Below are positions 4,904 to 23,177 of a DNA stretch of 23,177 bases, one piece after another (position 1 is the stretch's first letter; every line of letters begins with the position of its first letter). Below the pieces are notes generated by a model. The model ran no database searches and had not been told where the DNA came from. It was given only the letters and a program-made list of their open reading frames with translations. The position numbers and the translations under genes were made by a program. Origin of the DNA: a virus. The DNA lies in the IMG/VR virus record IMGVR_UViG_3300048928_000612, positions 1 to 23,177 of that record, one strand, 5' to 3'.

Positions 4904-4933
4904 ATTATCACCTCCGTCCTAATCAATCATCAC

Positions 4934-5785: not shown

Positions 5786-5798
5786 GCTTGTTACCTCC

Positions 5799-6662: not shown

Positions 6663-6677
6663 TTTATTTTCCCCCTT

Positions 6678-7532: not shown

Positions 7533-7545
7533 TGGTAACACCTCC

Positions 7546-10500
7546 TTATTTGTAAATATAAACAGTTTCCCCGCCATTATCACCTACAACATATTTTGAA
7601 ATAAAAGTGTAATAAGCCTCCAAGTCCTGTATCTCATAAGTGTTCTGACCAGTTATGACTGCTACCTTACCATTTGGTAATATGTAATCACCATTAAAAG
7701 AAACAACTACACCAGAAGTAACAGAAGTTGATTTAGTTCCAAGAATGAATATATTAAAATTATCATACGTTCGATGGTAAGGGTCAGAACAAGTTCCATC
7801 GGGAATCGAAATAACTCTATCATTTCCCCAGGCAAGCAAGCGTTGTGTTATTTCATCTTCTGAAATGCAGGCGTCAATCATTTGCGGAACTTCCCAATTA
7901 AAGGCCCTACGCTGTGGCTGGTATGATTCAAGACCGTTTAATACCGTTGTGATTTCCACCTTTGTCTGATCAATTATATTTGCACTGTCTCTACATCTTT
8001 GACCCCAGCTATAAGTAAACTCTGTTGTTGTGGTGGTGTATTCAGCAACCTTGTTTCCACCAACATAAATTTTAATTAGGTAATTCGCTCCATCTGGCAG
8101 TATAAAATCTGCTCCGGTATAATATCCTGTATCGTCATCTTGCGAAGTTATCCCATAGGATTGAAATACTTTGTTTCGGTTCGTCCAATATAATGCTAAA
8201 TCGCCAACAACATTGTCAATCTTTTTAACTTTGTCCTTCTTCCAACAAGCTATTTGAACATGACCTGGAGGAGTTGGTCTTTCAGCTCTCCTTACCGTTG
8301 TTAATTTTACAGCTTTGTCGGGATTAAATACCTCCGAATTTTTATCACTGGCAGTGGTTACATTGTACCCCTCAGTTGTATTCAAGCCTTTTTTACAAAC
8401 TGGACCTCCAGTTGTTACATTAGCGTAAGTTGTTCCTTCGAGGAACCATACCACTTCTTTATTGGCATGAGTCTGGGGTACAGTATCATAAACGCCTCTG
8501 ATTAATCCGCCTAATCGCCAATTACCATTTTCAATTCTTGTAATGCTGCTCCAAGCTATTATTTCATCACCAATAACAATTAATTTTCTGCCATTCCTAG
8601 CCGCTGTAATATCTGGTGCTCCGTTAGATAAAGTCGCTGAATCTAACTTATCCAGTCCATATAAATTAACTAATTCTATTCCAACCATATCTACGCTATC
8701 AGTAAATTCTGCATAATCGTAAACCAAAACACCAGCGGGTGTCCAATTCGTCATGCTATTTGTACTAGTCCATCCAATTGGCGCTTTATCCCTCCACACT
8801 GTCCATTTCACAGTATTCACATCGGGCTTTGCTACTAAAGCATATACATATGTATCACCATCTGGAATCAGTTCATAAGGCATTTCCATGTATTTAAAAT
8901 ATTGAGCACCCGTCGGATATTTATCCTCCAGGTGCCAATTCGTAGAGCCTGAGAATCCATAATCCGCTTTTCCTAAGCCGAATAAATCCTCAATAAATTC
9001 AATTGTTATCTTTCCATCAACATAATCTCCGAGGTCTATATCAGTAACACGAATTAGTAAGTTTGATACTCCGTAAGGCTCCCAATTAAGAACTGCAACA
9101 TCACCAGTTCGTAAACTATATAATGTTCTGTCACCCTCTATTGAACCTGTTGCCAACGGATAACCTTGTTGATAGGATTCACGCTTAGCTGCCCATAGCG
9201 CATTTTCCGCTATTGTAAAATATGGATAATCATAGGTTTTCGTAACTTTGTTTCCTTCTGCTAATTCAATGATGGAAGGGTCGTTATCATTTATGGAGCT
9301 TTGCTCATATTGTGCCTTCCTATCCGTGTACGTGACACTGATCTCACTTACTGTTTCCCGCCAATCCAATCGATTAAATGTGATCTTGCTGCAATTTGTG
9401 TTATCCATAACAACAAGCTTTGAAATATCATAATCATCCCTAATGAGCTTATAGGTCAATTTACCCGTTTGTGGATCTTGATACCTAACCATGTTAATAT
9501 GGTCACATATAGCATCGATGACAGTCCGAGCGGCTGCTTTATTGGCTATGGTAACAGTAAGACCTAGTCCCTCTTTTTTAAGCACTTCACCAGCGGCTTT
9601 CAGAGAATCAACGTCAATGGTATCATCTGTTTGGCCAAGGCCCCAGTTATTATTTTTATGGATTTCATATAAAATTTCAGCAGGATTTGCATCTTCACCA
9701 ATTGCACCAAACCCCAATCGATCTGGAATAAATTGCATTTCATACCACGTTTCTGGAATGTTTGGCTGTTTTCCAACGTAAGAAGTTGGTACAACTACCG
9801 AAACATAGGGTCTATACGCTGGAGTTAAACCACGCAGTTCTTCTTGCACACTTGTGGCACTCATTTGACTAATCATCCACGGGTCTGCTATTTGATCTTT
9901 GCCACCAAGGTACACATGAAGCTCTCCTATGAATCCACCATTTTCGTCAACACCGCCAAATAGGTCTTCATCATTTATGCTTGCTACGAATGAACTGGGA
10001 GTATGAGCTTCAATAGCCTCATCCCCTTCCCAACATTTTTCCTGCCCCATCCAAATCGTACGAATTCTCATACCTGGATTTGACCAGCACACTAACTGTT
10101 GATACCCTAAATAATATTTGAAGCCTTTTTGCATGGTGGTCTTTAAATTTCTACCGTTGATAAGCCACATCAGCAACCAATTAAATAAGGCGTTCATAAG
10201 AGGACCGCCTAAATCATCTTTGTAAGTGCCTCCTACTGATTCACCAGTAGCATTCACTGTTACTGGGCCTGCAGAGTTTCCGCCCGTTCCTGTGGTTTTT
10301 GTTATGGCTGGAGTTGCTTGATGTCCTGTTATAGGCGCAGCTATGTAGTTCATAATTAGTGCAAAAACAAGAGGCCACGCTGAAAAATTTGCATGTGCTG
10401 CATATGTTTCTGTATACTTGTCTGCCCTAAAATCACCATAAAATATGGTAAGCGGTGACTTAATCAAAGCTCTGCCAATTACAACAGGAATTGGCGTTCC

Positions 10501-10632
10501 TGTGTTTGTTTCGGTAAGTGATAACTCTTCTGGCTTAGAATCCGATTGGTCATTGCTGCCAGTGTTGCCACCATTTAAAGCCCATAGAGCCAAACTCGAT
10601 ATTGACCAACCTACCCAGGGATTCATTGACAT
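7546..10632 (-). CDS. Tail tip / central fibre protein, gpJ- and GTA-megatron-like
   Basis: This is a 1028-residue protein. The N-terminal GTPIPVVIGRALIKSPLTIFYGDF motif region (residues 45-68) is the usual start of lambda gpJ and GTA TIM-barrel type tip proteins. The middle (about 330-560) carries the phage-tail_3-like HDII/HDIII region, with the motifs DIDLGDYVDGKITIEFIEDLFG and LRTGDVAVLNWEPYGV. Residues ~690-740 have RKLIVIGDEIIAW and RLGGLIRGVYDT, also typical of this family. These proteins close the tail tip and form the host-contacting central spike. Two hydrophobic stretches occur near the N-terminus (about 85-103 and 141-160). The gene starts 15 nt after the hub gene, with AAGGTG as ribosome binding site. 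No NlpC/P60 gene separates hub and tip, unlike lambda and GTAs. Confidence 0.82.
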   Translation of the reverse strand: MSMNPWVGWSISSLALWALNGGNTGSNDQSDSKPEELSLTETNTGTPIPVVIGRALIKSPLTIFYGDFRADKYTETYAAHANFSAWPLVFALIMNYIAAPITGHQATPAITKTTGTGGNSAGPVTVNATGESVGGTYKDDLGGPLMNALFNWLLMWLINGRNLKTTMQKGFKYYLGYQQLVCWSNPGMRIRTIWMGQEKCWEGDEAIEAHTPSSFVASINDEDLFGGVDENGGFIGELHVYLGGKDQIADPWMISQMSATSVQEELRGLTPAYRPYVSVVVPTSYVGKQPNIPETWYEMQFIPDRLGFGAIGEDANPAEILYEIHKNNNWGLGQTDDTIDVDSLKAAGEVLKKEGLGLTVTIANKAAARTVIDAICDHINMVRYQDPQTGKLTYKLIRDDYDISKLVVMDNTNCSKITFNRLDWRETVSEISVTYTDRKAQYEQSSINDNDPSIIELAEGNKVTKTYDYPYFTIAENALWAAKRESYQQGYPLATGSIEGDRTLYSLRTGDVAVLNWEPYGVSNLLIRVTDIDLGDYVDGKITIEFIEDLFGLGKADYGFSGSTNWHLEDKYPTGAQYFKYMEMPYELIPDGDTYVYALVAKPDVNTVKWTVWRDKAPIGWTSTNSMTNWTPAGVLVYDYAEFTDSVDMVGIELVNLYGLDKLDSATLSNGAPDITAARNGRKLIVIGDEIIAWSSITRIENGNWRLGGLIRGVYDTVPQTHANKEVVWFLEGTTYANVTTGGPVCKKGLNTTEGYNVTTASDKNSEVFNPDKAVKLTTVRRAERPTPPGHVQIACWKKDKVKKIDNVVGDLALYWTNRNKVFQSYGITSQDDDTGYYTGADFILPDGANYLIKIYVGGNKVAEYTTTTTEFTYSWGQRCRDSANIIDQTKVEITTVLNGLESYQPQRRAFNWEVPQMIDACISEDEITQRLLAWGNDRVISIPDGTCSDPYHRTYDNFNIFILGTKSTSVTSGVVVSFNGDYILPNGKVAVITGQNTYEIQDLEAYYTFISKYVVGDNGGETVYIYK

Positions 10633-10647
10633 ATCATGTCACCTTCT

Positions 10648-11544
10648 TTACATTGAAATCGTTCCTACAAATCCGTCAGTGTCGCGTTGCACAATTTGGG
10701 AATCAACCCAATACACACCACGCCCCACATTTTTATGTTGTGGATTTGCAGGAGGGACATAGGGACAACCCGTAAAATTTAATGAGTTATTAAATCGTTT
10801 AGCACAAGTTCCGAAAAGGTGGTCACACCCTGGTGAAACAATTGCATCATTTCTAGGCGTTTCAATAAAGGGGTACTTTACTCTTATCCTATTTCCTACG
10901 TGCTCTACTATCATTCTTGAACTCTGCTTAAATCTTAATATTCCGTTTACAAAATATCCGTCAGGATAATTGGCAAATGTTTCGCAATAGATATCTAACC
11001 CAGTTACTCTGTCAATGAAGATAGGTATTTTCCAATCTTCTTCAACAAGTTGGCAATTGTGATCATAAATTACACTATTGCAATAGAATTGCCGCATTCC
11101 ATTTGGAATCTCTTTATTGACCCAACTTTCCAATTTAACAGTCAATACACACTCAGAATCTTCAAAGGAAGCCTGGCCAACTCGCCCTGCAAATATTACA
11201 TCTCGTTTTTCCTTATCCTGCTCATGGAAGCGGTATATGGTAAGAACAACAGGGCCTTCAGGTGGAAATCCCTGAAATAATTTAGCAACCGCATTATCTT
11301 TTGACACTGTAATCGATAAGGCTGACGAGTCACCTTTGCTAGCCGGTTTTATTCCTTCCCTCTGAATATATTCAGCAAAATATGTTTCCGTTCTGGTTAA
11401 CCCATCTTCAATAAGTGTGAGCATTACATCATCATGGTGTGACGTATAAAAGTACTTTCCAATATCGTATGTAAATTTATAACACTCTATTGGCTGACCA
11501 TCCTGCTGAGAAAATTCATAATTTCCTATATTCGTATTAGCCAC
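10648..11544 (-). CDS. Tail hub protein, DUF2163/Phage_BR0599 family, putative Fe-S site
   Basis: This 298-residue protein has a DUF2163-like N-terminal half (FAGRVGQASFEDSECVLTVKLESW) and a BR0599-like C-terminal half with the diagnostic PGCDHLFGTCAKRFNNSLNFTGC region, where the family has C.......C...F.N..NF.G.P..P. Cys155, Cys164, Cys240 and Cys247 are placed like the cysteines that hold an iron-sulphur cluster in hub proteins of the Rhodobacter GTA and lambda gpL. It should form the ring that joins the tail tube to the tip protein encoded next. GTG start: its first base overlaps the stop codon of the upstream gene by 1 nt, and GGAGGTGG lies 7 nt before. Cluster binding is by homology and not shown by the sequence alone. 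Confidence 0.85.
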   Translation of the reverse strand: MANTNIGNYEFSQQDGQPIECYKFTYDIGKYFYTSHHDDVMLTLIEDGLTRTETYFAEYIQREGIKPASKGDSSALSITVSKDNAVAKLFQGFPPEGPVVLTIYRFHEQDKEKRDVIFAGRVGQASFEDSECVLTVKLESWVNKEIPNGMRQFYCNSVIYDHNCQLVEEDWKIPIFIDRVTGLDIYCETFANYPDGYFVNGILRFKQSSRMIVEHVGNRIRVKYPFIETPRNDAIVSPGCDHLFGTCAKRFNNSLNFTGCPYVPPANPQHKNVGRGVYWVDSQIVQRDTDGFVGTISM

Positions 11545-12755
11545 TACTGCACCACCTCCGCTAATGTAAATGAGGTTGTGGCGACGCTTACTGTATCATA
11601 ATCAGTAACCATCGTATCACTATCAAGCCGATATCTACATAAGTAACTGATCATAGAAACACTGTTAACATCAATGGGTCTGGTCAATGGCTTGGCTAAC
11701 ATGATCCTGCCATATTCTCCAGTTGCATCTGTGGAATAGCCTGCAATTTCTATAATCTCAGCCGTTGTATCTTTGTAAAATACAATGGCTTTACTTCTGT
11801 TCTTTATATTGGCAAAATACCTCCAATACATCGAATATTTGGTTATAATATTCATTGCGCCAGCTGGACAATCATAGACTGGTTCTATATCATTTAGCCA
11901 GGTTGGAGCATAGAAGGAATGCAGCCTGCCTTTTTTATTGATAAAGAATCTTTGCATATTATTTATTTCAACACGACTTGTCATAATGTACTCAATTTGA
12001 CGTGTTTCTGTTGGTTCATTACTCTTTAAATCATATCGGAATATGCCAGTCTTATTATCAAGCCGATTGGCGTTTCGGTTAAAATTAGCACTTATATCAC
12101 TGGCCCATGTTGGGGGCTTCATAAACAATTCAAAACCGAGGTAGGTTGCTGGTAAATTGCTTCCATAAAGTTTTGCCTCTGGTTCATAGCGGTCACTCAA
12201 GCCACTGGGAAACAAGGGCGCTTCGGCTTCTTTCATCATTTCGACGGTTATATTTAAAGAGGTCCCACTTCCAATGAAATTACTATAACTTGCTGATTGG
12301 GACAAGCACCCCCAAGCAACAGGCGCAATGACGCCAGCTCCCCCCTTCCAATCTGTTTCAATTTGTTTACCTAATGCAATAATTCCAACAATTGATAATG
12401 CACTGATTGGGAAGTACGTACCTCCGTAGTCATCATTTCGCCATAAAATTGCACCACTGCACCCACGATATTGCCACAAATTATCAACAGGTATTTCAAG
12501 GTTAGCATTTCCTTCATAAAACTGCTCTGTCACTTGATATGCGGCGTGCCACATTGGGATTTGAAAAATCTGTGTTTGTTGGTTATACACTAAAGATCGT
12601 AGATATTGGCTTTGTCGTGTTTCGGTACCAATATAATCATAAGAAATACTTCTTCTGGGTCTTGTTCGTAATGCAGCACGTTGTTCTGAATTATCCCAGG
12701 CAGTGTGTATCTGCGTAAGAAATTCAAGAGTTTCTGATATTTTTTCTTTACTCAC
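11544..12755 (-). CDS. Distal tail protein (DUF2460/BR0599-related)
   Basis: This is a 403-residue protein. The GTG at 12755 is preferred over an in-frame TTG at 12785, because a GGTGGGGGT site lies about 7 nt before the GTG. Residues ~252-290 read RQIEYIMTS, then F.NKKGRLHSFYAPTWLNDI. This matches the (R)QIE......F...(R)GR..SF(W/Y).P.W..D block of distal-tail proteins encoded before DUF2163 hubs in Pseudomonas siphophages and gene transfer agents. The probable role is the ring between the tube and the hub. It is followed directly by the hub gene (1-nt overlap) and preceded by a gene ending 4 nt upstream, so translation is probably coupled. There is no enzymatic motif. Confidence 0.65.
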   Translation of the reverse strand: MSKEKISETLEFLTQIHTAWDNSEQRAALRTRPRRSISYDYIGTETRQSQYLRSLVYNQQTQIFQIPMWHAAYQVTEQFYEGNANLEIPVDNLWQYRGCSGAILWRNDDYGGTYFPISALSIVGIIALGKQIETDWKGGAGVIAPVAWGCLSQSASYSNFIGSGTSLNITVEMMKEAEAPLFPSGLSDRYEPEAKLYGSNLPATYLGFELFMKPPTWASDISANFNRNANRLDNKTGIFRYDLKSNEPTETRQIEYIMTSRVEINNMQRFFINKKGRLHSFYAPTWLNDIEPVYDCPAGAMNIITKYSMYWRYFANIKNRSKAIVFYKDTTAEIIEIAGYSTDATGEYGRIMLAKPLTRPIDVNSVSMISYLCRYRLDSDTMVTDYDTVSVATTSFTLAEVVQ

Positions 12756-12759
12756 GTCA

Positions 12760-13623
12760 TTACCCCCACCACGGCGATAAGTCAAATATTCTATCTCTGT
12801 TGACTACCACACCACTACTACCATACCATTGCCACATTTTCCAAAGCATCCAAGGCTCAAAAGCTGATTTGGAACCATTCATAATGGAAGCAAATATGCA
12901 TATCATCAGGAGATTCCCAACATCAGCCATTTCTGCAACTGCTTCACGATATTCCTTTTCACCTAAAGAGTTCAAATCCATTTTTGAAAATTCAGCAGCA
13001 AAATTACCAGTCGCAGAGAGTGAAGTTGTTTTAGCCAATATAATTGCTTTTATACAACTAGTCACATCCATGTCTACTAAAGTATCATCATGACCAGAAA
13101 TTGTTACCTTATCAACCAACATCTCAAAATTCGCATGCATTTCATCTTTTAGATATTTATCAAACTCACCCCAAAGGTATTCAACCATGTACCCCACTGG
13201 TCTAAGGTGCACTGGGCCATATCCATGTTTATATCGCCAAGCAAGTAAAAAAGAATCATTCTCCCATTTACCAGATATGTGTATTGCAAATTGAGGACTC
13301 TCAAATATATCCCAAGTTATTCCCAAATCGCTAATTGTCTTAGCATTAAAAACAGTGCGATTACCTAAATTATCAGTTACAGTAAAATCATAATTTTTTA
13401 TTTCCCACAAATAAGTCCAACCAGCTTGAAGTCCGTTATATTTTATTGTTGTGTTGTCTCCCCACTTTAAACTCAGGCTTCCCAATTCATCCCATGTCAT
13501 TGTTCCGCCAGTAAAGTATTTGAAGTCCATTCCAACATGTCCAAGATGCATTAATTTTACAGAGAAAAAAGGGAGAGGAGGGTTACGGAATTTCTCACTT
13601 TGCCCTATCCCGTACAAACCCAT
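12760..13623 (-). CDS. Tail-module protein of unknown function
   Basis: This 287-residue protein starts at MGLYGIG, with GGTGGAG 8 nt upstream. An in-frame ATG at 13650 with an AAGGGGGGG site is the alternative and would add 9 residues. The N-terminal ~100 residues are beta-rich (GGTMTWDELGSLSLKWGDNTT, YLWEIKNYDFTVTDNLGNRTVF). The C-terminal half is helical and contains AEFSKMDLNSLGEKEYREAVAEMADV and an Trp-rich end (EPWMLWKMWQWYG). I recognise no family. It lies between the paralogous structural proteins and the distal tail protein, ending 4 nt before the latter, so it is very likely part of the tail. The Trp-rich segment could be a packing or membrane-interface helix. Confidence 0.6.
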   Translation of the reverse strand: MGLYGIGQSEKFRNPPLPFFSVKLMHLGHVGMDFKYFTGGTMTWDELGSLSLKWGDNTTIKYNGLQAGWTYLWEIKNYDFTVTDNLGNRTVFNAKTISDLGITWDIFESPQFAIHISGKWENDSFLLAWRYKHGYGPVHLRPVGYMVEYLWGEFDKYLKDEMHANFEMLVDKVTISGHDDTLVDMDVTSCIKAIILAKTTSLSATGNFAAEFSKMDLNSLGEKEYREAVAEMADVGNLLMICIFASIMNGSKSAFEPWMLWKMWQWYGSSGVVVNRDRIFDLSPWWG

Positions 13624-13665
13624 TTGGATTTCTCCACCCCTAGTAATCATATACCGCGCCCCCCC

Positions 13666-14805
13666 TTACTGCTTAATACTTATTCCATCATATCCGAATA
13701 GACCAATTCTATGAACATGCGGGAAAACTTGATGTAAATTACCACTCAATGGATAGCTTATTTCATATAATTGCCCAGGAGCTACATTTCTCATTGATAT
13801 TGCATACATGCCTGGCACATACCCAACCTGACTAAAATTCTTCAATGCATCGGGGTCACGAAGCACATATAATGCCATCGGAAGGTTTACACTTATGCAA
13901 TTCAGTGTATTAACATTTCTGCCTATATCAGTCATCGTTTGGCTTTGCAAATAGCCGTAATGGGGTACTTTAGGAAACCATGAGGTAGTTAAACAATCAA
14001 GATTAGTTACTCCCATAGCTAACATTTTACCAGTGTAACAAGCCGCTGGACTAGCATCATTTGCACCACCACTCGCCCATAATACGGAATGTGATCTTGA
14101 TGGTGCGGCATCAATGTCACACCTCAAAAATGTGCTTGCATATTTAGACATTCCGAATAAGTGATTACTTTCCGCTTCTATTTGTGACATAGCCCAAGAG
14201 CTTGGGAACATCCTAACACTGTTCCTACTTCCAGAATATAACGTACCGCCAATCCATCCGCCAACCTTATTCGTCATTGCAACTGCTAGATGTTGAAAGT
14301 ACCCTGGCTCCAATTCTAAACTAAATACCAACAACTCTGCTGGGTCACTACTTGAATTACAATACAATCTATAATTTGCGTCTTGTTTTACGGGTATTCC
14401 AACCCCAATTACTTCTTGCGTAGCTGCTAATTTCGTAGCATTTGGCTGATCGTACCAATAACCACTTACTGGATTTGCACTATATTGTGTAGCACAAACA
14501 AGACCGATACCATAACATGATGCTGCGGCAGTTAGGGCGGCTGTGGATGCACCCGTAGTAGGATTTGTAATAGTCATTCCAGTGTGAGTTTCAAAAATCT
14601 CTTTACCATTAGCACTTCTAAAATGTGCAAATATTTCTCCTTTTTGGATTGACAGCCGTTTGCCATCCGTTACGCCTTCACCATCTATTGATAAGTCTGG
14701 TGTGAGATTTTCTAATACTGTCCAACCATGCAAAAGCACAAAATCTCGCATTTTTTCAAGTACATCATCTGGACCTGCTAAATTTTCGTAGATTTGATAA
14801 GCCAT
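13666..14805 (-). CDS. Paralogous tail structural protein, copy 3 (divergent)
   Basis: This 379-residue protein shares the general plan of the other copies, weakly. The N-terminal block M.DFVL.HGWTVLENL...I.GEG.TDGKRLSIQ corresponds to the GW...G..G.K block of copies 4 and 5. A middle strand FSLELEPGYFQHLAVAM and a GGWIGGTLYSGSRNS stretch take the place of the PYP...GS block in copy 1. It differs in having an Ala-rich segment (TTGASTAALTAAASCYGIG) and ending in a His-rich stretch (LHQVFPHVHRIGLFGYDG). Strong GGAGGATT site before the ATG; the upstream gene stops 4 nt earlier. No catalytic motif. Membership in the paralogous family is the least certain of the five. Confidence 0.55.
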   Translation of the reverse strand: MAYQIYENLAGPDDVLEKMRDFVLLHGWTVLENLTPDLSIDGEGVTDGKRLSIQKGEIFAHFRSANGKEIFETHTGMTITNPTTGASTAALTAAASCYGIGLVCATQYSANPVSGYWYDQPNATKLAATQEVIGVGIPVKQDANYRLYCNSSSDPAELLVFSLELEPGYFQHLAVAMTNKVGGWIGGTLYSGSRNSVRMFPSSWAMSQIEAESNHLFGMSKYASTFLRCDIDAAPSRSHSVLWASGGANDASPAACYTGKMLAMGVTNLDCLTTSWFPKVPHYGYLQSQTMTDIGRNVNTLNCISVNLPMALYVLRDPDALKNFSQVGYVPGMYAISMRNVAPGQLYEISYPLSGNLHQVFPHVHRIGLFGYDGISIKQ

Positions 14806-14808
14806 TTT

Positions 14809-16287
14809 TTAATCCTCCAATCTTATAATACAATTCATTGTATTAGATATTTTTTCTATTCTTGTTTGCAAAGCCAATAAAGCCGCACTGTCCATAACTC
14901 TGTGCAAGCCATGGGGTATATGGAATTTGCGAGTTTCCCAAGTATTGGGCAATACAAGATGCAGCTTCCCATTAATGCGCTGTTTTCCATATCTCGCAAC
15001 TCTATTACTAGTCCAGTACATTCTCCACAACTTGCCTAATACGTTATTTGTACTTGTATGAGGATTCTTCTGTACGAATTCAATTGGTTCTAATTGGTAT
15101 GTATTTTTTATGTCACCATCTTGATGATATATGTTAGCGGTGTCACTCAAGTTTGTGTAAGTTGGTCTAATATAGTTATTCATTTTAGACGGTTGCTCTG
15201 GTTCTTTATTTACTACTTGGTAAGGAGGCTCACCACTATAATAATTCTCAGTTACAAGTTCTTTTCTAATGGCATAATTGTAGAAGGATTGCCAGGTTCC
15301 ATCCGGCAGCATAACCTGTGCTTGCGAAACTGCTTGATCGTCTGACCAACTTGCCGAACCATCCCAATAGGTGGAAGCGAATAAGACATTTCCATGCGTT
15401 AATAACCAGTTTCTCGGACTATAATCAAATTTGCACCCAGCTTCCCAAGTGTAGTATTGAGCGTTATAGTATCGATACGGCTCTATCACTGGCATAACAC
15501 CAGAAGTACCACCGATTATGCAAGCTGGGAAAGCATATTCATTAGGCTTATGGTAAGGTTCAAAAAATCCGGCATTAACGACTTCCCAAAATCCACCATT
15601 ATTTATGGTTATAATTATTCTATGTCGGTCTTTTATTATCCAAAATTCAGCCAATCCATCAACAAAACCACCTACGTCTATCCCTATAGCTGGAAATCCT
15701 ACACCAGGGTAAGTTGGGGGAGAGAAATTTGTTGGATTGTATGTTGTATAACGTGGATTGCGTGCCCAATATTTTATATCTTTTGGTCTTACAGGTTGCG
15801 TTGCCCCACCTGCCTGCTCATGCCAATCCAATCCATCTGAATATTGTTTAAATACACCAAAAAATAGCGCTTGGGAATTACTACTAAATATATCAGGAGA
15901 TGCAAACGTGTAAGTAGTAGGTGCTTCACCAGTTGCAGAGTTATAAACACCAACTGACACATAGTTAGTACCAATAGAAACATTTTTAGTATCGATTGGT
16001 AATCCAAGACCTTTTTTGTTATACACAAATTCCCTAGCGAGTATCTCAGGTTGACAAAACCATTTTGGATAGGTGTCATTTACTCTAAATATTTGGGGCA
16101 TAAGACCAAAGTACTGTTTTTCACCATCTTCCCAACCATGCGCTTTTAATATTGTCCCCTTAGGCCAAGGTTCATTCCTCATAAGTTCCCAAGCATCATC
16201 ACCATGAATTGATTCGTCAGTAGTCCAATCTATTACTTGCTGTATTAAATTGTCCAAACTTGTAGCATGACCATTCAAATATGGCAT
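14809..16287 (-). CDS. Paralogous tail structural protein, copy 2
   Basis: This 492-residue protein is the largest of the paralogous set. The core HRIIITINNGGFWEVVNAGFFEP....NEYAFPACIIGGTSG lines up with SRFILIAQLSTQYECCYVGFMKP....RQYPYPLVVAGS of the next gene upstream (16300-17274). Other shared points are a G.EDGEK..YFGL N-terminal block and an LGK.W.MY/LDGVY-type block near the C-terminus. A C-terminal helical tail (residues ~465-492) follows HIPHGLHRVMDS. It is Pro/Tyr/Trp-rich and has no signal peptide. The ATG follows AAGGTGGTGATAAC. The likely role is a structural virion protein; the specific position on the particle is unknown. Confidence 0.6.
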   Translation of the reverse strand: MPYLNGHATSLDNLIQQVIDWTTDESIHGDDAWELMRNEPWPKGTILKAHGWEDGEKQYFGLMPQIFRVNDTYPKWFCQPEILAREFVYNKKGLGLPIDTKNVSIGTNYVSVGVYNSATGEAPTTYTFASPDIFSSNSQALFFGVFKQYSDGLDWHEQAGGATQPVRPKDIKYWARNPRYTTYNPTNFSPPTYPGVGFPAIGIDVGGFVDGLAEFWIIKDRHRIIITINNGGFWEVVNAGFFEPYHKPNEYAFPACIIGGTSGVMPVIEPYRYYNAQYYTWEAGCKFDYSPRNWLLTHGNVLFASTYWDGSASWSDDQAVSQAQVMLPDGTWQSFYNYAIRKELVTENYYSGEPPYQVVNKEPEQPSKMNNYIRPTYTNLSDTANIYHQDGDIKNTYQLEPIEFVQKNPHTSTNNVLGKLWRMYWTSNRVARYGKQRINGKLHLVLPNTWETRKFHIPHGLHRVMDSAALLALQTRIEKISNTMNCIIRLED

Positions 16288-16299
16288 GTTATCACCACC

Positions 16300-17274
16300 T
16301 TAAAACCACTCAATTGTGTAATATTCGTCAGTATCTCTGCGAAATACGTTACTAAAAACTTTATAAGGCTTATTGTCGTGAATGATGGTATCCTTTGAAG
16401 ATAAATCTTCTCGATTGCCCACAAAATAAACTCCATCTAATTGACCTACTATACCCTCAGGGTGAGTTTCATATAACAGACATGGGAACATAATGATATT
16501 TTCGATTGTCAAACTATTATCCAACACCGTTAGCACATTTGTTGGTTCTGTGTTCTGAGGCCATACACACAGTCTTTCAAATTTAGCTGCGGTGTCCGAA
16601 CTTGTTTTGTTCAATGCAGAACGCCAAGCACCATCTGGTCGCCTTAATCGAAAACCTGAGGTATCTTGGTTTGCATTGTCTGTAAGTAGATTTCCAAAGG
16701 CACCAAGACCCGCATAACTGTCAGAACCCGGATTGGTAAACCCACTATGACCAGGCGTTTGGGCTGACCATGGTTTTCCTTGTATATAACTTCCAGCTAC
16801 CACAAGTGGATAAGGATATTGGCGTTCAACTGCTACTGGCTTCATAAAGCCCACATAACAACATTCATATTGAGTTGATAATTGAGCGATGAGTATAAAT
16901 CTGGACGTATTGGCAGATAGCCAACAACTCATTCTGCTACTGTCTGCTAATGGCACTATCGGCAATTTCGTATGTGATATAGAGCCTGGTTGCTCTTCCC
17001 ACTTAAGATTTTCATCATATCCAGCATAACCATTTAACACCACATCCTTTTGACCTACGTCAGCTCCATCCTCAATCTTCATACCAACATAAATTGAATC
17101 CTGTCCATCCCCAACACCTTTTATAATTACTTCTGTATCTATGGCATCAATAGTGGCAGGTCTTAACAGTGTCCATTGATTTCCATTACTAAAATTATTA
17201 GAATCAGTTAAAAAGGTAACAACCGTCTTAACCAATTCCAAAGGGTTACTAACCACGAATTCTAATGCAGCCAT
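16300..17274 (-). CDS. Paralogous tail structural protein, copy 1
   Basis: This 324-residue protein is the first gene downstream of the internal terminator. The N-terminal block has ...NQWTLLRP....... then GVGDGQDSIYVGMKIEDG. The middle core is CCYVGFMKPVAV then YPYPLVVAGS. The C-terminal block EGIVGQLDGVYFV........D.I..DNKPYKVFSNVFRR carries the most recognisable family signature, shared as EGxxGxLDGV with the gene at 5799-6662. Proteins with this plan are virion structural components in tailed phages, but I cannot name the family. An AGGGGTGATAG site precedes the ATG. It may be expressed from a separate promoter (see 17368-17395). Confidence 0.6.
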   Translation of the reverse strand: MAALEFVVSNPLELVKTVVTFLTDSNNFSNGNQWTLLRPATIDAIDTEVIIKGVGDGQDSIYVGMKIEDGADVGQKDVVLNGYAGYDENLKWEEQPGSISHTKLPIVPLADSSRMSCWLSANTSRFILIAQLSTQYECCYVGFMKPVAVERQYPYPLVVAGSYIQGKPWSAQTPGHSGFTNPGSDSYAGLGAFGNLLTDNANQDTSGFRLRRPDGAWRSALNKTSSDTAAKFERLCVWPQNTEPTNVLTVLDNSLTIENIIMFPCLLYETHPEGIVGQLDGVYFVGNREDLSSKDTIIHDNKPYKVFSNVFRRDTDEYYTIEWF

Positions 17275-17403: not shown

Positions 17404-17431
17404 AAAACCCTCAGAATTATCCGAGGGTTTT
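17404..17431. terminator. Rho-independent terminator after the tape measure gene
   Basis: A 9-bp inverted repeat (17404-17412 with 17423-17431) has CCCTC/GAGGG as its core, a 10-nt loop and a U-rich run on both strands (stronger on the plus strand). It lies 34 nt after the tape measure stop codon. It would reduce the amount of distal-tail mRNA relative to tube and chaperone mRNA, unless the phage uses antitermination. Confidence 0.75.
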
Positions 17432-17464: not shown

Positions 17465-19561
17465 CTATCCCTTAACATTTAAAATCTGCCGCATAGTTCC
17501 AGCGTTATTTTTCATGAAGTTAACCATTATCCTCTCGCCGGACCTTGTCTTTAGGTAACGCCCTACTTCATTAGGATCCGTCACATTGACAACCTTGAGC
17601 GGTACGGTAACATCACCACTTTGCATACTACTTGCAATGGCAGTAGCACCTTCAAGACTCGCACCTACTAACCCGCCAGTTGCAAAGCGAGGCATTAGAT
17701 TGTTAGGAACAAAGCCTTTGTTTAAGGAATGGAGAAAGTTCGTCCCATACTTTTGCACAGATGATGCTTTAATAACAAATTCTCCATTTGAAAGCCGAGC
17801 AAGGATACTATCACTGGTACCTGTACCTGAGCCTTGAATATGACCGCCTTCAGCAAAAGTACCGTCTTCTTTTAAGGGACCTTGTACAACTGTACCATCA
17901 ACAGTCGGTCGTGAAGTTTGAACCCCAATTCCCAGCATACTCAAAATATTCTTGGTCACTGCCTCTGCATATATCTTCTGGATAGATTGCAGTACAGAAA
18001 CCGCAAGATTGCGGAATGCTTCACCAAGATTTTTGGATTTGATTATACCTTCTGTCAGAAAGTTAGACAGGCCAGCTTCAAAGGTTTTCTTACTGGCTTC
18101 GTGAATTCGTTCTAGAAGTGACGGAGTTTTAGCTAATTCGCGATTGTAGTCAGCTGGTTGCGCTGTTGCTGAAGTATTACCATTAGCATCCCGCTTAAAT
18201 CCAAAATTTTGAGAAATGTTAGTACCATTAGGTAATGTCCCAGAGGCTGATTTTTTTTTTGCAGTCGCGTCTAGTCCCAATCCTGACATTATTTGCTTTA
18301 TCAGTTCTTGCGCATAATTTTGTATCGATTGGATAACGGTAAGAGCTAAGTTTCGGAAGGCTTCACCAAGGTTTCCTTGTGAGCTTTTTACGGAATCATC
18401 AGAGATAGAACCTCCTGTAGCATAACTACCTTTACCATTATAGAAGTCCTGGGGTATAAGACCGTTGTTGACACTATCAAGAAAATTTGTTCCCCATTTT
18501 TGTACTGCATTGGCACGAATCACGTATTCCCCATTAGAAATCCTGATAAATTTACCTTTGTTTCCAAGCCACGCTAATATACTATCGCTTGTACCCGTCC
18601 CCGGTCCAGATACTTGGCCGCTCTCCATGTGACCACCAGTAGCATATCCATTCACATTAGCTTCCAGTGCTCGCTCAATATATTGGACAATATCTTTTTC
18701 CTCAGGATGTCCTGGACTGCAAGTTCTCAAAGCATATATTATGTCTCCTTGACTATAGCCTTGTTTCAACATCTGAGCAACTATCACCTCATCTAGTCCA
18801 TTACCTGGCCATATATAGTTGTCTTCCATTGCATTATTAACTTCATCACAATATTCAGCTACGGCATTTTTGGCAGGTCTCGTTTGCAAATGTGCAACAT
18901 CAACCAAATACCCTAACATCGCATGTTGTGCGGGTTTTCCTGATCCAGGACTACTTAGTACTTCGCCAACACCATCAGAATATTTCACGCTATATGACTG
19001 ATGTTTTTCAGATAAATACTCGGTCCATTCAGGATTCCCCAGCTGATTATACATCCACCCAGGCACTATATCGCCATCCCGAATGTAATTTTTTACAGCA
19101 ATAGAACTAGGATCAAGCCCTTTAAAAAAATTGCCTATACCTGCCGGAGCAAAGGCTACACCCTGTATCTGATAACCTTCCTTTGTAGCCAAGGTGGCAT
19201 TAACGTATTGCACCATTGAACCGCCCAAGGAATGGCCTGTCATGCCGACAAGAGATAAACTATTAGTATTACAATACCGTTTAACCTTGTTATAAAATTG
19301 CATTGCCTTTTTAAATTCGGGTGGCTTTATATCACTCGACCACATATCAAGGTCATGTAAGTAATTTTGCCAATTAGCCGAACCTCGATAGGCAATAACG
19401 ACTTCCTTATTACGTTCATATGCCTCAGCGTAAAAGTCCTCCTCATCGGACATTTTTAAATCCTCTAGTTTTACAAACTTATAATTTTCAGGCGAAATAA
19501 GATTTGCATCACGATATACCGCATTACTTAGTATGGCGTACTCTTCATCACTTACTGCCAC
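17465..19561 (-). CDS. Short tape measure protein with N-terminal class 3 lipase domain
   Basis: This is a 698-residue protein. Residues 1-~230 are a class 3 lipase/esterase domain. The oxyanion-loop motif YRGSANWQNYLHDL is at 58-71, the nucleophile elbow GHSLGG at 109-114 has Ser111, the acid is probably Asp164 in RDGDIVPGW, and His213 lies in AQHAMLGYL. Residues ~235-303 are a helical linker (DEVIVAQMLKQGYSQGDI). The rest has typical tape measure C-terminal elements in duplicate: GTGTSDSIL...SNGE(Y/F)VI.A..VQK(W/Y)GTNFL (321-362 and 579-610) and LGEAFRNLA (398-406 and 512-520). It is placed exactly where tape measures lie, after the G/GT chaperone. GTG start with GAGGGGGTG. A lipase head on a tape measure is unusual, and little non-lipase length remains to act as a ruler. 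The substrate is unknown; membrane lipid is a guess. No long transmembrane segment is obvious. Confidence 0.85.
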   Translation of the reverse strand: MAVSDEEYAILSNAVYRDANLISPENYKFVKLEDLKMSDEEDFYAEAYERNKEVVIAYRGSANWQNYLHDLDMWSSDIKPPEFKKAMQFYNKVKRYCNTNSLSLVGMTGHSLGGSMVQYVNATLATKEGYQIQGVAFAPAGIGNFFKGLDPSSIAVKNYIRDGDIVPGWMYNQLGNPEWTEYLSEKHQSYSVKYSDGVGEVLSSPGSGKPAQHAMLGYLVDVAHLQTRPAKNAVAEYCDEVNNAMEDNYIWPGNGLDEVIVAQMLKQGYSQGDIIYALRTCSPGHPEEKDIVQYIERALEANVNGYATGGHMESGQVSGPGTGTSDSILAWLGNKGKFIRISNGEYVIRANAVQKWGTNFLDSVNNGLIPQDFYNGKGSYATGGSISDDSVKSSQGNLGEAFRNLALTVIQSIQNYAQELIKQIMSGLGLDATAKKKSASGTLPNGTNISQNFGFKRDANGNTSATAQPADYNRELAKTPSLLERIHEASKKTFEAGLSNFLTEGIIKSKNLGEAFRNLAVSVLQSIQKIYAEAVTKNILSMLGIGVQTSRPTVDGTVVQGPLKEDGTFAEGGHIQGSGTGTSDSILARLSNGEFVIKASSVQKYGTNFLHSLNKGFVPNNLMPRFATGGLVGASLEGATAIASSMQSGDVTVPLKVVNVTDPNEVGRYLKTRSGERIMVNFMKNNAGTMRQILNVKG
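17699..18643 (-). repeat. Two-unit internal duplication in the tape measure gene
   Basis: Two protein modules occur twice in the same order reversed around a linker. Module A (GG...GTGTSDSIL...VQK.GTNFL) spans about 18446-18643 and 17699-17857. Module B (NLGEAFRNLA...QSIQ) spans about 18272-18373 and 17927-18031. The order is A-B-B-A. The first A copy has about 9 extra residues (around GNKGKFIRI) that the second lacks. Nucleotide similarity remains visible around the GCTTCACCAAG blocks, suggesting fairly recent duplication or recombination between related tape measure genes. Confidence 0.7.
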
Positions 19562-19567
19562 AACACA

Positions 19568-20202
19568 TCACCCCCTCTGTAGCCGTTTTTCATACTTATC
19601 CACATCTTCCTTGCCACCCCATATCCCTACTCTAACGTCATATAGCTGATTGCATCTTGCTAGATTGTCAATCAGTACTCCTGCTTCATAGAAATCCGTT
19701 ATTTGATCTATGGTGTAGTTTTTGATATCCTCAAAGTTATGTCCGAAACGTATTAAAGAGGCGATGATTTCTTTCCAGCCGAACCCGTTTTTGTTTTTTT
19801 CGCTGCTAGCTGCGCCTTTGTTTGAGCGATAATCGGATTCAACCGTTCCTTGAAAAAACTCCAGTTACCCGTAATGGTACCGAATAACAGCTCTACGCCT
19901 TCTGCACCTGCTATTTCATTGACCCATGTAGTAGGTTTGCCTGTGCCTAGCGCAATAAGCTCTGTTACCGAATCCCAATGTTTCTCACATAAATTGAAAA
20001 TGGCTGTAAAGACTTTCTCATTTAACACTAATTCACTATTCTCTAGGGATAATGTTTGCAAGACCGCTATAATGTCTTCCCCCATTTTACCAACTAACGT
20101 TATTACTTTCGGTAATTGGCCAAAAGTAAAGGGACGAAGATGAATCAATTCTTCGCCCACTTTAATCTCTTGACCAGGAAGTAATCTTTTTAATTCATTC
20201 AT
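19568..20202 (-). CDS. Tail assembly chaperone GT fusion, made by -1 frameshift
   Basis: Reading shifts by -1 at the A7 run (19794-19800) after residue ~136 of the G protein, then continues for 75 codons to the stop at 19568-19570, giving about 211 residues. The extension (FGWKEIIASLIRFGHN, then YTIDQITDFYEAGVLIDNL) reads as a normal T domain and has no start codon with a ribosome binding site of its own, so it would be lost without frameshifting. In lambda-like phages GT binds the tape measure and tail tube subunits to nucleate tail assembly. The tape measure gene starts 7 nt after this stop. The open frame is directly seen; slippage is inferred. Confidence 0.8.
19753..20202 (-). CDS. Tail assembly chaperone G protein (zero-frame product)
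   Basis: This 149-residue protein is placed between the major tail protein and the tape measure, exactly as lambda gpG. The start is set at the ATG at 20202, because GGAGG lies 10 nt before it; an in-frame ATG at 20235 would overlap the tail tube gene and include the binding site. The N-terminal half (GEELIHLRPFTFGQLPKVITLVGKM) has the pattern of phage tail assembly chaperones. The C-terminus is a Lys/Ala-rich tail (QTKAQLAAKKTKTG) that contains the slip site. It is made in excess over GT in related phages and is not part of the finished tail. Confidence 0.8.
   Translation of the reverse strand: MNELKRLLPGQEIKVGEELIHLRPFTFGQLPKVITLVGKMGEDIIAVLQTLSLENSELVLNEKVFTAIFNLCEKHWDSVTELIALGTGKPTTWVNEIAGAEGVELLFGTITGNWSFFKERLNPIIAQTKAQLAAKKTKTGSAGKKSSPL
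19794..19800 (-). promoter_or_regulatory. Slippery A7 run for -1 frameshifting between G and T
   Basis: In mRNA sense the site is GCG AAA AAA ACA in the zero frame: seven consecutive A residues. The P-site Lys tRNA on the second AAA can re-pair perfectly one base back, bringing the T frame into register. Canonical X XXY YYZ is only partly met (G AAA AAA), so transcriptional slippage adding one A is an alternative that gives the same protein. No clear pseudoknot is visible downstream by eye. Confidence 0.7.
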
Positions 20203-20227
20203 ACTGTCCCAGCCTCCACAACATATA

Positions 20228-20992
20228 TTAAGCATTCAATAGTCTGTAATAAGGATCTTTCGGATGGTTCTCACTATCATTTTGAACTTCAATACTTAGT
20301 CCAATACTGCCCCAATCTTCCGTAATGAAACCAAGATCACCATCTGGAGAGATGGATACCTTCCAAAACTCACCTTCATAAGCAGGTCCATGGGTAGGAT
20401 CACCTACAAAATGCAAGTAACCTTCAATTCTACTGACAGTACCTCCGGAAATCTTTGTCATTACACAAGCATCAGCACCAAAAGCAACCTTAATATCACT
20501 ACCATCAGCAATACCGCCACCTACCATAATCTCAATACGTCCTGTTTTGGCATTTAATACATAATCCACATCAGCAACATACACGGTACCTGTAGGTATT
20601 GATTCCACTACTACGGATTTTACGTTTTTATAGCCTAGGTTATAGTACATTCCCTGTGTAACTTTAGCAAAATCTTCAACAAGACCAGCCTTGGCAGCTT
20701 GCGTATATAGACCTTCTTCACCCATTAAGGCCAGTGCCAAGTTTGCTGGACTAAAATAATCTAGTTTTGTTTTCGCAGTTATGGTAATCTTGGTTACTAC
20801 AGATCGAAGCAAACCTTTTGCAGCACTCATAGTAGAGTATTTTTCTTTTTTCTCTGTTGCAGTAGTCAGTATAAAATCAGTAGCATTACCTAGTGGACGC
20901 TCCCCTGTAGGATTTCCCTCTTTATCAAATCTATCAAAATATAGCATCCCAGCACCAATCATCAAATCTTTTGCAGTAGTTGTAATAGCCAT
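20228..20992 (-). CDS. Major tail tube protein
   Basis: This 254-residue protein forms the non-contractile tail tube. The N-terminus (LMIGAGMLYFDRFDKEG then RPLGNATDFILTT, then KEKYSTMSAAKGLLRSVVTKITITAKTKLDYFSPANLALALMG) matches tail tube proteins of lambda-like Pseudomonas and Burkholderia phages. The C-terminal half is beta-rich, with GYLHFVGDPTHGPAYEGEFWKVSISPDGDLGFI, and appears to bear a surface domain. It lies 4 nt after the tail terminator gene and just before the chaperone genes, the standard order. GCGAGGAT ribosome binding site before the ATG. No sheath gene is present, so the tail is flexible. Confidence 0.85.
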   Translation of the reverse strand: MAITTTAKDLMIGAGMLYFDRFDKEGNPTGERPLGNATDFILTTATEKKEKYSTMSAAKGLLRSVVTKITITAKTKLDYFSPANLALALMGEEGLYTQAAKAGLVEDFAKVTQGMYYNLGYKNVKSVVVESIPTGTVYVADVDYVLNAKTGRIEIMVGGGIADGSDIKVAFGADACVMTKISGGTVSRIEGYLHFVGDPTHGPAYEGEFWKVSISPDGDLGFITEDWGSIGLSIEVQNDSENHPKDPYYRLLNA

Positions 20993-20996
20993 TTTT

Positions 20997-21416
20997 TTAT
21001 CCTCGCTTTCGCCATTTAATTTTAATTATCATTCGACTCCCAAAGGTCGGTCTGGATTTTTCTCCATCTGCCACTACGCCATCAATACTAATCTTTGCCT
21101 CCAGCCCTACATCCGTAGATAAAACGCCAGGCCACTCTAATAAAGCATCTACAATGTCTACTTGCGCCATGTATTGTTGTTCGTAATGAGCTTCTGGATC
21201 AACATTCTCTAATTTAACATAGACATCAGCCCAAAGAACGGCTGTGCCCTCTTTACTTCGATGGATAAAGAAAGCACTTTCATCATCCCATCGAATTTCT
21301 ATACAAGGGTAGGTTTTACTGTCACCCTTTGCCCCAGCGTAAATAGCAAAGCCAGAAAGTGCGCTTCTTGTTTTTAAATGATCGGATAGGCTCTTTGCTA
21401 TCGGCCACCATTGCAC
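20997..21416 (-). CDS. Tail terminator / tail completion protein (gpU-like)
   Basis: This is a 139-residue alpha/beta protein. The pattern LSDHLKTRSALSGFAIYAGAKGDSKTYPCIEIRWDDES, a strand VLWADVYVKLE, a helix YMAQVDIVDALLEWPGVLS and a final strand RMIIKIKWRKRG fits the tail terminator fold that caps the tail tube and joins it to a head. The GTG start has GGGGAGGTG 7 nt before it. It is the first conserved morphogenesis gene here. Its presence next to no head gene is notable, because tail-like bacteriocins also keep a terminator. Confidence 0.7.
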   Translation of the reverse strand: MQWWPIAKSLSDHLKTRSALSGFAIYAGAKGDSKTYPCIEIRWDDESAFFIHRSKEGTAVLWADVYVKLENVDPEAHYEQQYMAQVDIVDALLEWPGVLSTDVGLEAKISIDGVVADGEKSRPTFGSRMIIKIKWRKRG

Positions 21417-21576: not shown

Positions 21577-21837
21577 CTAGCGCAATGCCAATTTAGCATT
21601 GCTTATATAAGAATTAATTTCGACGGCATCTTTTGTTTTGTCAGTAACTGCATAAAACTCAACCACCGTCTCTCCCCTCTCTGCGGCATTACGAAATCTG
21701 TGTTTTGTCCCTGCAAGCCCTTGCACAAATCCACTAGGCTGCACTAGAGCCACATTTACTCGAACAGCAGGTTCCTTTAAACATGTATCGAAAACCTTGA
21801 TTAGTTGTTCAGAATTATTTCTCATTTCAATATTCAT
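21577..21837 (-). CDS. Small hypothetical protein
   Basis: This is an 86-residue protein. The start is set at MNIEMRNN, because AAGGGA lies 4-5 nt upstream; a longer frame from 21855 would include that site. It overlaps the end of the coiled-coil gene by 11 nt, so the two are probably translated together. The sequence (LIKVFDTCLKEPAVRVNVALVQPSGFVQG) then AERGETVVEFYAVTDKTKDAVEINSYISNAKLALR is alpha/beta, with no recognised motif. It sits upstream of the tail terminator, where some phages encode connector or minor proteins. I do not recognise the family. Confidence 0.55.
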   Translation of the reverse strand: MNIEMRNNSEQLIKVFDTCLKEPAVRVNVALVQPSGFVQGLAGTKHRFRNAAERGETVVEFYAVTDKTKDAVEINSYISNAKLALR

Positions 21838-22288
21838 ACTTTCCCTTCTCATCATGTTCGACTTGATTTGTATTCACTATTAAATGAAGTAAGGCATTCA
21901 TGTAAGCCGATTTTGCCTCATTCAGCGTTGAGATGAGCCTCATCATTTTAAGTTCATCCTGCTTTTTACGGCGTTCTTTTAAGATTTCTGTAGTAAATTC
22001 AATTTCTTGTCGTTTACATTTAGCTTCCAATCGTTCCAACTTTTTCTGTAGAGCTAGGTCAACATTGGCATCTATCTCTAAACGACTAACTAATTCTTTA
22101 TATTTTTCTACTACCATGCTGCTAATCTTTTCAGCTTCTAACAGGCGTGCTCTCAAGTTTTTCGCTTCATTATTCTTCTTTTTTAACTCATCTTTGTAAC
22201 TACTTTCGATTACCTCCAGGGTAATCGAATATTCTTTGCCATCCTTTAAACTTTCAAGGGTCTTTAATAACTGTTCTCTTGTTTTCAT
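21827..22288 (-). CDS. Coiled-coil protein of unknown function
   Basis: This 153-residue protein starts at MKTREQLLKTLESLKDGKEYS, with GGGAGGAA 10 nt before the ATG. An in-frame TTG at 22366 would give 26 more residues and overlap the Cys-rich gene, but lacks a binding site. Residues ~25-125 are almost continuously charged heptad sequence (ELKKKNNEAKNLRARLLEAEK; LQKKLERLEAKCKRQEIEFTTEILKERRKKQ), predicting a long coiled coil, possibly dimeric. The His-containing tail (LLHLIVNTNQVEHDEKGKYEY) is short. It could be a scaffold-like or regulatory protein; no family is recognised. Confidence 0.6.
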   Translation of the reverse strand: MKTREQLLKTLESLKDGKEYSITLEVIESSYKDELKKKNNEAKNLRARLLEAEKISSMVVEKYKELVSRLEIDANVDLALQKKLERLEAKCKRQEIEFTTEILKERRKKQDELKMMRLISTLNEAKSAYMNALLHLIVNTNQVEHDEKGKYEY

Positions 22289-22353
22289 TGTTTCATTTCC
22301 TCCCGGGATACATTTTATTTTAAGCCCACCGGGGGCGGGAACACATAAGAGTA

Positions 22354-22512
22354 TCATTTTCGCCAATTTTCTTTTGGTCTTTCTTTCATTAAATCTTCAA
22401 ATGAACAATAGCTGATGCACTCACCATCTGCATTAATTCTGATGCTATCAGCAGCACAACCATCCTTACTTTTATTTACACAATCATTTTTCTCGCAGGT
22501 TATAATTAACAC
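22354..22512 (-). CDS. Small Cys-rich DUF1540-like protein
   Basis: This 52-residue protein is too short for standard gene callers. The GTG start at 22512 is forced by an in-frame TGA just before it, and GAGGTGG lies about 8 nt upstream. Cys6, Cys11, Cys19, Cys32 and Cys36 follow the pattern C....C.N....C.A..I.I.....C...C of DUF1540 proteins, which are short putative metal-binding proteins common in clostridia and spore formers. An acidic/basic tail (SFEDLMKERPKENWRK) follows. An overlapping ATG frame (10 codons) is not a gene. It lies right after the terminator at 22547-22568. Confidence 0.6.
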   Translation of the reverse strand: MLIITCEKNDCVNKSKDGCAADSIRINADGECISYCSFEDLMKERPKENWRK

Positions 22513-22688: not shown

Positions 22689-23177
22689 TTATAAACATCC
22701 GCGTTTTATTGCTACTCTTACAGCTAACTCAACTATTTGATTCCACCAGGACATCATCGTTCTTTCGCTCGGGACTTGTTCATACCCATACATTCTATAC
22801 ATCTTATCCGCATAGGTAGCCTGTGTGTAAGATACCCAGCCAGGGCGACCAACAGTAGCAATTCCATCATTTTTAAATCCCTCTGCCCTGCGACGAACTT
22901 CAATAAAGACTCTCTTTTGGGGACTTACTATCTTTTCCACATCCTCAATAGTCATTAGCCAAAGCTCATCATTCTTTAATCGATCTAATTCTATTACTTT
23001 TTTAGCCGTTGAGTCACTCTTACCCGATCCATGTGGCATACCTGTATACTGAGCAACTGAAAGTGCTGAGATATTATTTTGCATTTGTGTATATATTTGA
23101 CAACGCTGATGGTAATATAACATCCATTCTGATGCTATCTGATTTTGTTTTTTTATATCTAGCCACGTTAAATCCAA
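22689..23177 (-). CDS. ArpU/RinA-like phage late transcriptional regulator (may be partial)
   Basis: The 162 codons reach the window edge. The first codon is TTG, so the true start may lie outside. Features of the ArpU/DUF1492 group: the MPHG.GKSD.TAKKVIEL motif (residues 47-64), then IEDVEKIVSPQKRVFIEVRRR, and a C-terminal helix-turn-helix-like segment (ADKMYRMYGYEQVPSERTMMSWWNQIVELAVRVA). These proteins activate late structural genes of Firmicutes prophages and usually lie directly upstream of terminase genes. Here the tail genes follow instead. The C-terminal segment probably contacts DNA like a sigma region 4 domain. Confidence 0.65.
   Translation of the reverse strand: MDLTWLDIKKQNQIASEWMLYYHQRCQIYTQMQNNISALSVAQYTGMPHGSGKSDSTAKKVIELDRLKNDELWLMTIEDVEKIVSPQKRVFIEVRRRAEGFKNDGIATVGRPGWVSYTQATYADKMYRMYGYEQVPSERTMMSWWNQIVELAVRVAIKRGCL

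Follow-up and report, generated by a model that had tools for sequence, protein, structure and literature searches.

The window, that is, the whole stretch of DNA analysed, is a linear IMG/VR record of 23,177 bases, cut at both ends. It carries a gene at positions 17465-19561 on the minus strand that encodes a protein of 698 amino acids, with a GTG start at 19561 and a stop codon ending at 17465. The initial annotation had placed an open reading frame at these coordinates, and one is found there, but on the minus strand; a plus-strand reading was rejected because that strand holds only short spurious ORFs. A single frame without stop codons spans a lipase part (residues ~1-230) and a tape-measure part (residues ~303-698), as had been claimed. 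The gene occupies the slot of a tape measure, between the tail chaperone and the distal tail genes. The position had been described as canonical and proves to be so: directly before the fusion gene are the tail assembly chaperone (19753-20235, minus; phrog_1442, E 2e-22) and a gpT-like frame (19568-19780, minus) that overlaps the chaperone end. The same gpT-like frame lies upstream of the homologous fusion gene in a second contig, L002, a counterpart of ~61 amino acids is found in locus L080, and the chaperone/gpT-like arrangement precedes the tape measure of L003 as in the window. We also asked whether the fusion gene might be cargo that follows a complete tape measure outside our view; this was rejected because the chaperone and gpT-like frames directly precede it in the window, and in L002 the gpT-like frame likewise directly precedes the fusion. 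An internal restart yielding a separate tape-measure part was rejected as well, since Met312 is not conserved in L002. A strong intrinsic terminator (17404-17431, minus; -18.1 kcal/mol, z -6.7) lies 3' of the fusion gene, and its position and sequence are kept in L002, L003, L004, L007 and L011. An Rfam search gave no match.

Residues 1-230 (18872-19561, minus) are assigned to the class 3 lipases by a Pfam match, by fold and by their selective constraint (dN/dS 0.22 against L002), in agreement with the lipase domain proposed at the outset. Pfam Lipase_3 (PF01764) matches residues 87-170 with an E-value of 1.2e-5 and 25.6 bits, which is above the gathering cut-off of 22 bits; L002 (20.9 bits) falls just below it. 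The AlphaFold2 model of residues 1-311 has a mean pLDDT of 63; in blocks of ten residues the values are ~72-96 through residue 60 and again in residues 81-140, so that the first strands and the surroundings of the nucleophile are well ordered. Class 3 lipases are its best structural matches: it aligns to 4tgl (Z 13.1, rmsd 3.2 over 178 residues) and also to Serratia LipA (2qua), so that on a model of moderate quality an alpha/beta hydrolase fold like that of fungal lipases is predicted. A profile of the homologues, compared with PDB sequences, found phospholipase A1 (E 4e-7) and fungal lipases. The catalytic triad had been called complete, and conservation backs two of its members: Ser111, the nucleophile in the GHSLGG motif (codon 19229-19231, minus), is invariant in all homologues, and Asp164, the proposed catalytic acid (codon 19070-19072, minus), is conserved in all six intact ones. 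It is less secure for His213, the proposed catalytic base (codon 18923-18925, minus), which is kept in L002 only and lies in a low-confidence region of the model. The T6SS lipase of Enterobacter cloacae (PDB 9cys) also has a class 3 lipase fold and matches the model with Z 9.5 at 24% identity; unlike the window protein, it is delivered by a T6SS, is accompanied by an immunity protein and has no fusion to a tape measure. No immunity gene was seen in the window.

PHROG tape-measure profiles match residues ~300-695 only, mostly as two stretches, with E-values down to 1e-31. A first copy of the tape-measure C-terminal motif (residues 303-396; 18374-18655, minus) is 49-55% identical to the single motif of the relatives and has a dN/dS of 0.09; it is followed by a first copy of the NLGEAF helix (residues 397-430; 18272-18373, minus), marked by a 57-nt repeat. 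The conserved tape-measure C-terminus (residues 468-698; 17468-18160, minus) includes a second motif copy at residues 568-635 and is homologous to the corresponding part of L003 and L004. The duplication of C-terminal motifs, suspected from the beginning, is borne out: in tape measures with a single motif, residues 303-396 and 568-635 both match one common segment, and the 57-nt direct repeat (18318-18374 against 17976-18032) retains 72% identity. The Gly-rich motif and the NLGEAF helix thus occur once more ahead of the C-terminal 230 residues, which are 53-58% identical to the canonical tape measures of L003 and L004 (1197-1226 amino acids) and are the only part common to them. Canonical tape measures from Pelosinus JBW45, Sporomusa KB1 and IMG/VR relatives resemble the fusion in these 230 residues and in their slot after the chaperone; however, they have normal N-termini without a lipase, and the full proteins of the relatives reach 1171-1682 amino acids. 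The fusion lacks the homologous N-terminal ruler of ~900 residues, has the lipase in its place and carries the additional motif copy. The ruler had been remarked on as short. This is correct in that the ~900 residues are missing, but shortness is not unique to the window, since two of three headless relatives have tape measures of 482 and 532 amino acids. The model of residues 254-698 (pLDDT 36) is uninformative on the C-terminal fold.

A small helical domain between the lipase and the tape measure (residues 257-299; 18665-18793, minus) matches RepB_primase_C, a family named for replication proteins (Pfam E 1.8e-6, and 2.9e-6 in L002). Its sequence evolves unconstrained, and residues 231-302, the linker that includes it, have a dN/dS of about 1 against L002.

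The same fusion is present in L002, an independent metagenome contig, as a protein of 704 amino acids with 76% identity. An assembly chimaera, which the initial annotation had named as a way in which the fusion might prove false, was rejected on the strength of this independent occurrence. L002 is also the one further case that the search for other lipase-tape measure fusions yielded, so that the fusion is known from two sequences; the headless context can be read in the window, the L002 contig being too short. The lipase part had no match among 50,697 phage records, two more scans of viral contigs gave no further lipase-tape measure case, no lipase or tape-measure match in 380 Negativicutes genomes joined both parts, and a literature search found no lipase-tape measure. 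Between the window and L002, dN/dS is 0.22 for the lipase and 0.09 for the C-terminus (residues 561-698), and is near 1 for the linkers 231-302 and 397-470; both the lipase and the tape-measure C-terminus are under purifying selection. The dS of the fusion as a whole is 0.47, whereas six other shared tail genes, only 29-58% identical at the amino acid level, have reached or nearly reached saturation at synonymous positions. The fusion has therefore been exchanged as a unit between diverged tail backgrounds. Within the gene, dS is 0.98 for the lipase against 0.23-0.39 for the C-terminal part, which makes recombination inside the fusion gene likely as well.

The remaining genes of the window form a tail and lysis module. 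Next to the chaperone is the gene of a short form of the major tail tube protein (254 amino acids; 20228-20992, minus; phrog_807, E 4e-50), and beyond it that of a tail terminator-like protein (20997-21416, minus), 47% identical to its L004 homologue in the same position. There follow a truncated gp10-like remnant of 92 amino acids (21577-21855, minus), with a weak match to the gp10 of L116 (25% over 79 amino acids), and a scaffold-like protein of 179 amino acids without a capsid gene (21827-22366, minus). The latter is 30% identical to the scaffold of L004, itself a Pfam Phage_scaffold protein, and 38% identical over 74 amino acids to a remnant in the headless locus L080. A probable regulator gene (22689-23177, minus), cut by the contig end, encodes a protein 37% identical to those of L049 and L046. 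On the other side of the fusion gene lie the distal tail, hub and fibre-attachment genes g8-g14 (7546-17274, minus; phrog_687, 1082, 778 and 1101), 42-68% identical to a Sporomusa KB1 prophage, and a lysis cassette of holin and N-acetylmuramoyl-L-alanine amidase (935-2026, minus; Pfam Amidase_3 E 5e-41, Phage_holin_4_1 E 7e-7). The distal tail, fibre, holin and amidase genes are intact, and all tail and lysis frames are open. The relatives suggest a Negativicutes bacterium as the source.

A number of large genes at positions 2087-7583 are tail- or fibre-like, and two of them (4934-5785 and 5799-6662) match the same relatives (phrog_687/9130 type); a 938-amino-acid protein of this region may be a receptor-binding fibre. 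Beside the amidase, a membrane-anchored protein of 206 amino acids (267-887, minus), possibly a lysis accessory, is 55% identical to one that ends the tail region of the Sporomusa prophage. Headed relatives carry a secreted gene product of ~167 amino acids right after the tape measure (L006 10776-11276 and equivalents); this gene is absent in the window, and in L002 (~2257-2466) it seems reduced to a signal-peptide remnant.

Headed relatives are found in Pelosinus fermentans JBW45 (L003/L006), Sporomusa KB1 (L007/L013), other Negativicutes and IMG/VR records. Nine of them have gp10, capsid, decoration, scaffold and MuF genes before the tail terminator, with portal and terminase also present where the loci reach far enough, and in headed relatives the homologue of the regulator lies upstream of TerS. 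The order in the window is regulator, a gap of 0.3 kb, scaffold-like protein, gp10-like remnant and tail terminator. The interval from regulator to tail terminator, which holds the head genes in headed relatives, is thus ~1.3 kb long in the window and contains remnants only. No terminase, portal or capsid gene lies within the window, a linear sequence open at both ends, in contrast to the headed relatives, and family scans of the window showed no sheath gene. By its genes it has the features of an F-type tailocin, namely a non-contractile tail module, lysis genes and no head genes within the window.

Tail clusters without head genes are also found in chromosomes: there are three (L080, L081 and L082) in two Negativicutes genomes. 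L080 has a tape measure of 482 amino acids and, beside cotJC, a scaffold remnant of 138 amino acids; L081 has a tape measure of 532 amino acids together with holin and amidase; L082 keeps one of about 1087 amino acids, which led us to reject the notion that headlessness is always paired with a short tape measure. L081 and L082 belong to the same genome (G289), and each is preceded by a sigma-70 region 4-like regulator. The tube protein of the window is 47% identical to that of L081 (260 amino acids) and 42% to that of L082 (257 amino acids), whereas headed relatives have a form of 361-390 amino acids; headless L080 departs from this, its tube protein having 373. Among the 380 Negativicutes genomes, G009 and G011 hold the closest lipase homologues, remnants of ~120 amino acids with up to 43% identity, which begin MAVTNE where the window lipase begins MAVSDE. 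On direct comparison, the G009 remnant has cotJC on one side and a penicillin-binding protein gene on the other, and it is this interval that holds a headless tail cluster in G314. This suggests, without proving it, that a lipase-bearing tape measure was once resident in the tail locus of G009. A search of viral contigs for similar elements based on the regulator found nothing, and we found no paper with both 'Negativicutes' and 'tailocin'.

There are few F-type tailocins, and the mode of killing proposed for them is a pore. F-pyocin, monocin and rhizoviticin combine a headless non-contractile tail with lysis genes, an arrangement that the gene content of the window matches; their killing is attributed to pore formation, and no tape-measure lipase was found described for them. 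Rhizoviticin is an F-type tailocin that arose by head-gene loss (PMC10811719). An enzyme at the N-terminus of a siphophage tape measure is known from Thermus phage P23-45, in which the virion RNA polymerase is fused N-terminally to the tape measure (PMC10770324). That fusion resembles the one described here, but differs in having an RNA polymerase and a giant ruler of 5002 amino acids in a headed phage, as opposed to a lipase and a short ruler in an element that is headless as far as the contig shows. Tme of Streptomyces davawensis is a tape-measure-like endonuclease effector (PMC11126660), and Sle1 of S. lividans a tape-measure-like effector associated with membrane and ribosomes (PMC13277306). 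Both are similar to the window protein in bearing an effector domain on a tape-measure-like protein loaded in a headless tail-like machine; however, they belong to contractile systems, have the effector domain at the C-terminus and show only remote tape-measure homology. The mechanism had been put forward as undescribed, and this must be narrowed: an enzyme on a tape measure (P23-45) and tape-measure-like effectors (Tme, Sle1) have been described, and with them the principle, while no version with a lipase was found. What appears new is the combination, in a non-contractile element without a head, of a tape measure with a class 3 lipase at its N-terminus, which was not found in the phage, viral and genome collections searched or in the literature.

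The reading we prefer, although we would give it no better than an even chance, is that the window derives from a headless, F-type tailocin-like element of siphophage descent in Negativicutes, in which a lipase replaces the tape measure N-terminus and would be ejected to attack the target membrane. The initial annotation had the tape measure entering the host envelope during infection or killing; as the window holds no head genes, a killing particle without a head is a better fit than infection, which is unlikely. The fusion would be expressed with the rest of the late tail operon. The conserved 230 residues at its C-terminus would dock in the tail tip, by homology and by analogy with lambda gpH, the C-terminus of which lies in the tail tip (PMC10721106), and the lipase would come to lie at the head-proximal end of the short tail, the end freed by head loss. 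A folded lipase, as an oligomer, would probably fit poorly inside the tail tube, which leaves its location uncertain: it may lie outside the proximal end or be unfolded within the tube. For Sle1, adaptation of a globular domain to the lumen has been proposed (PMC13277306). Holin and amidase would then lyse the producer and release the particles, binding to a target would expel the tape measure into the target envelope, and there the lipase may cleave lipids of the membrane, so that enzymatic damage would come on top of pore formation. Beyond the gene structure, every step of delivery and activity is inferred from sequence.

Four other explanations were weighed against this one. The window may come from a normal headed phage, with head genes that are located beyond the contig or dropped out during assembly; its lipase-tape measure would then help the tail to breach the diderm envelope during infection. 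Such a phage would account for the linear viral contig being open at either end and for the distal tail genes, which have their nearest counterparts in a headed Sporomusa prophage, and the enzyme of P23-45 does work from the tape measure N-terminus in a headed siphophage (PMC10770324). We nevertheless consider it unlikely, given the regulator-to-terminator interval of ~1.3 kb with nothing but remnants in it and the existence of headless clusters in chromosomes, one with a similar scaffold remnant. Quite unlikely, too, is a decaying prophage in which chance recombination substituted a lipase fragment for most of the tape measure and left a functionless product. Missing or truncated head genes, a duplicated C-terminal motif and freely evolving linkers are what decay might leave behind, but a second, diverged contig retains the open fusion, the lipase and C-terminus are constrained (dN/dS 0.22 and 0.09) with the catalytic residues kept, and the tail and lysis frames are all open.

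The lipase might instead act in the producer at lysis, together with holin and amidase on the diderm envelope, its fusion to the tail being incidental or keeping it inactive until release. Both lysis genes are indeed present, and lytic phage lipases directed against outer membranes are known, mycobacteriophage LysB being one. This lipase, however, is encoded outside the lysis cassette, forms one polypeptide with the conserved C-terminus of the tape measure and is transferred together with it, and we regard a role in lysis as about as unlikely as decay. Least credible is a purely structural role, in which the lipase fold would stand in for the head by plugging or capping the proximal end that a headless tail leaves open, and catalysis would be irrelevant. 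The N-terminus is expected to be proximal by analogy with lambda gpH (PMC10721106), and headlessness and an N-terminal globular domain coincide in the window, yet conservation of the triad Ser and Asp and of the GHSLGG motif makes this very improbable.

A broader and more speculative form of the preferred headless-tailocin reading, which we put forward as a tentative possibility, is that in resident non-contractile tailocins of Negativicutes, which are diderm Firmicutes, the tape measure serves as a swappable effector carrier, the head-freed N-terminus with its membrane-degrading lipase being ejected last into the target and killing enzymatically beside pore formation. If a lipase does sit on the ruler of a headless tail, the tape measure would be an N-terminal effector carrier in non-contractile particles, and the idea of tape-measure effectors would extend to these from contractile systems. 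It also raises the idea that, once the head is lost, a place becomes available to an effector domain, and it draws attention to the little-studied headless tail clusters of diderm Firmicutes.

Related lipases occur near other tail-like genes. Genome G082 (L028/L038; L038 6414-14120) encodes a related lipase of 250 amino acids, whose gene follows that of a GPD/VgrG-like spike and has a DUF4280 protein encoded in its vicinity; this lipase is a candidate effector of a contractile system. In a prophage-like region of genome G007 (L025/L040; L040 7673-9013), a tail fibre gene and a small one come just before the gene of a 447-amino-acid lipase of the same type. Judged by these neighbours, this type of lipase keeps company with tail-like machines.
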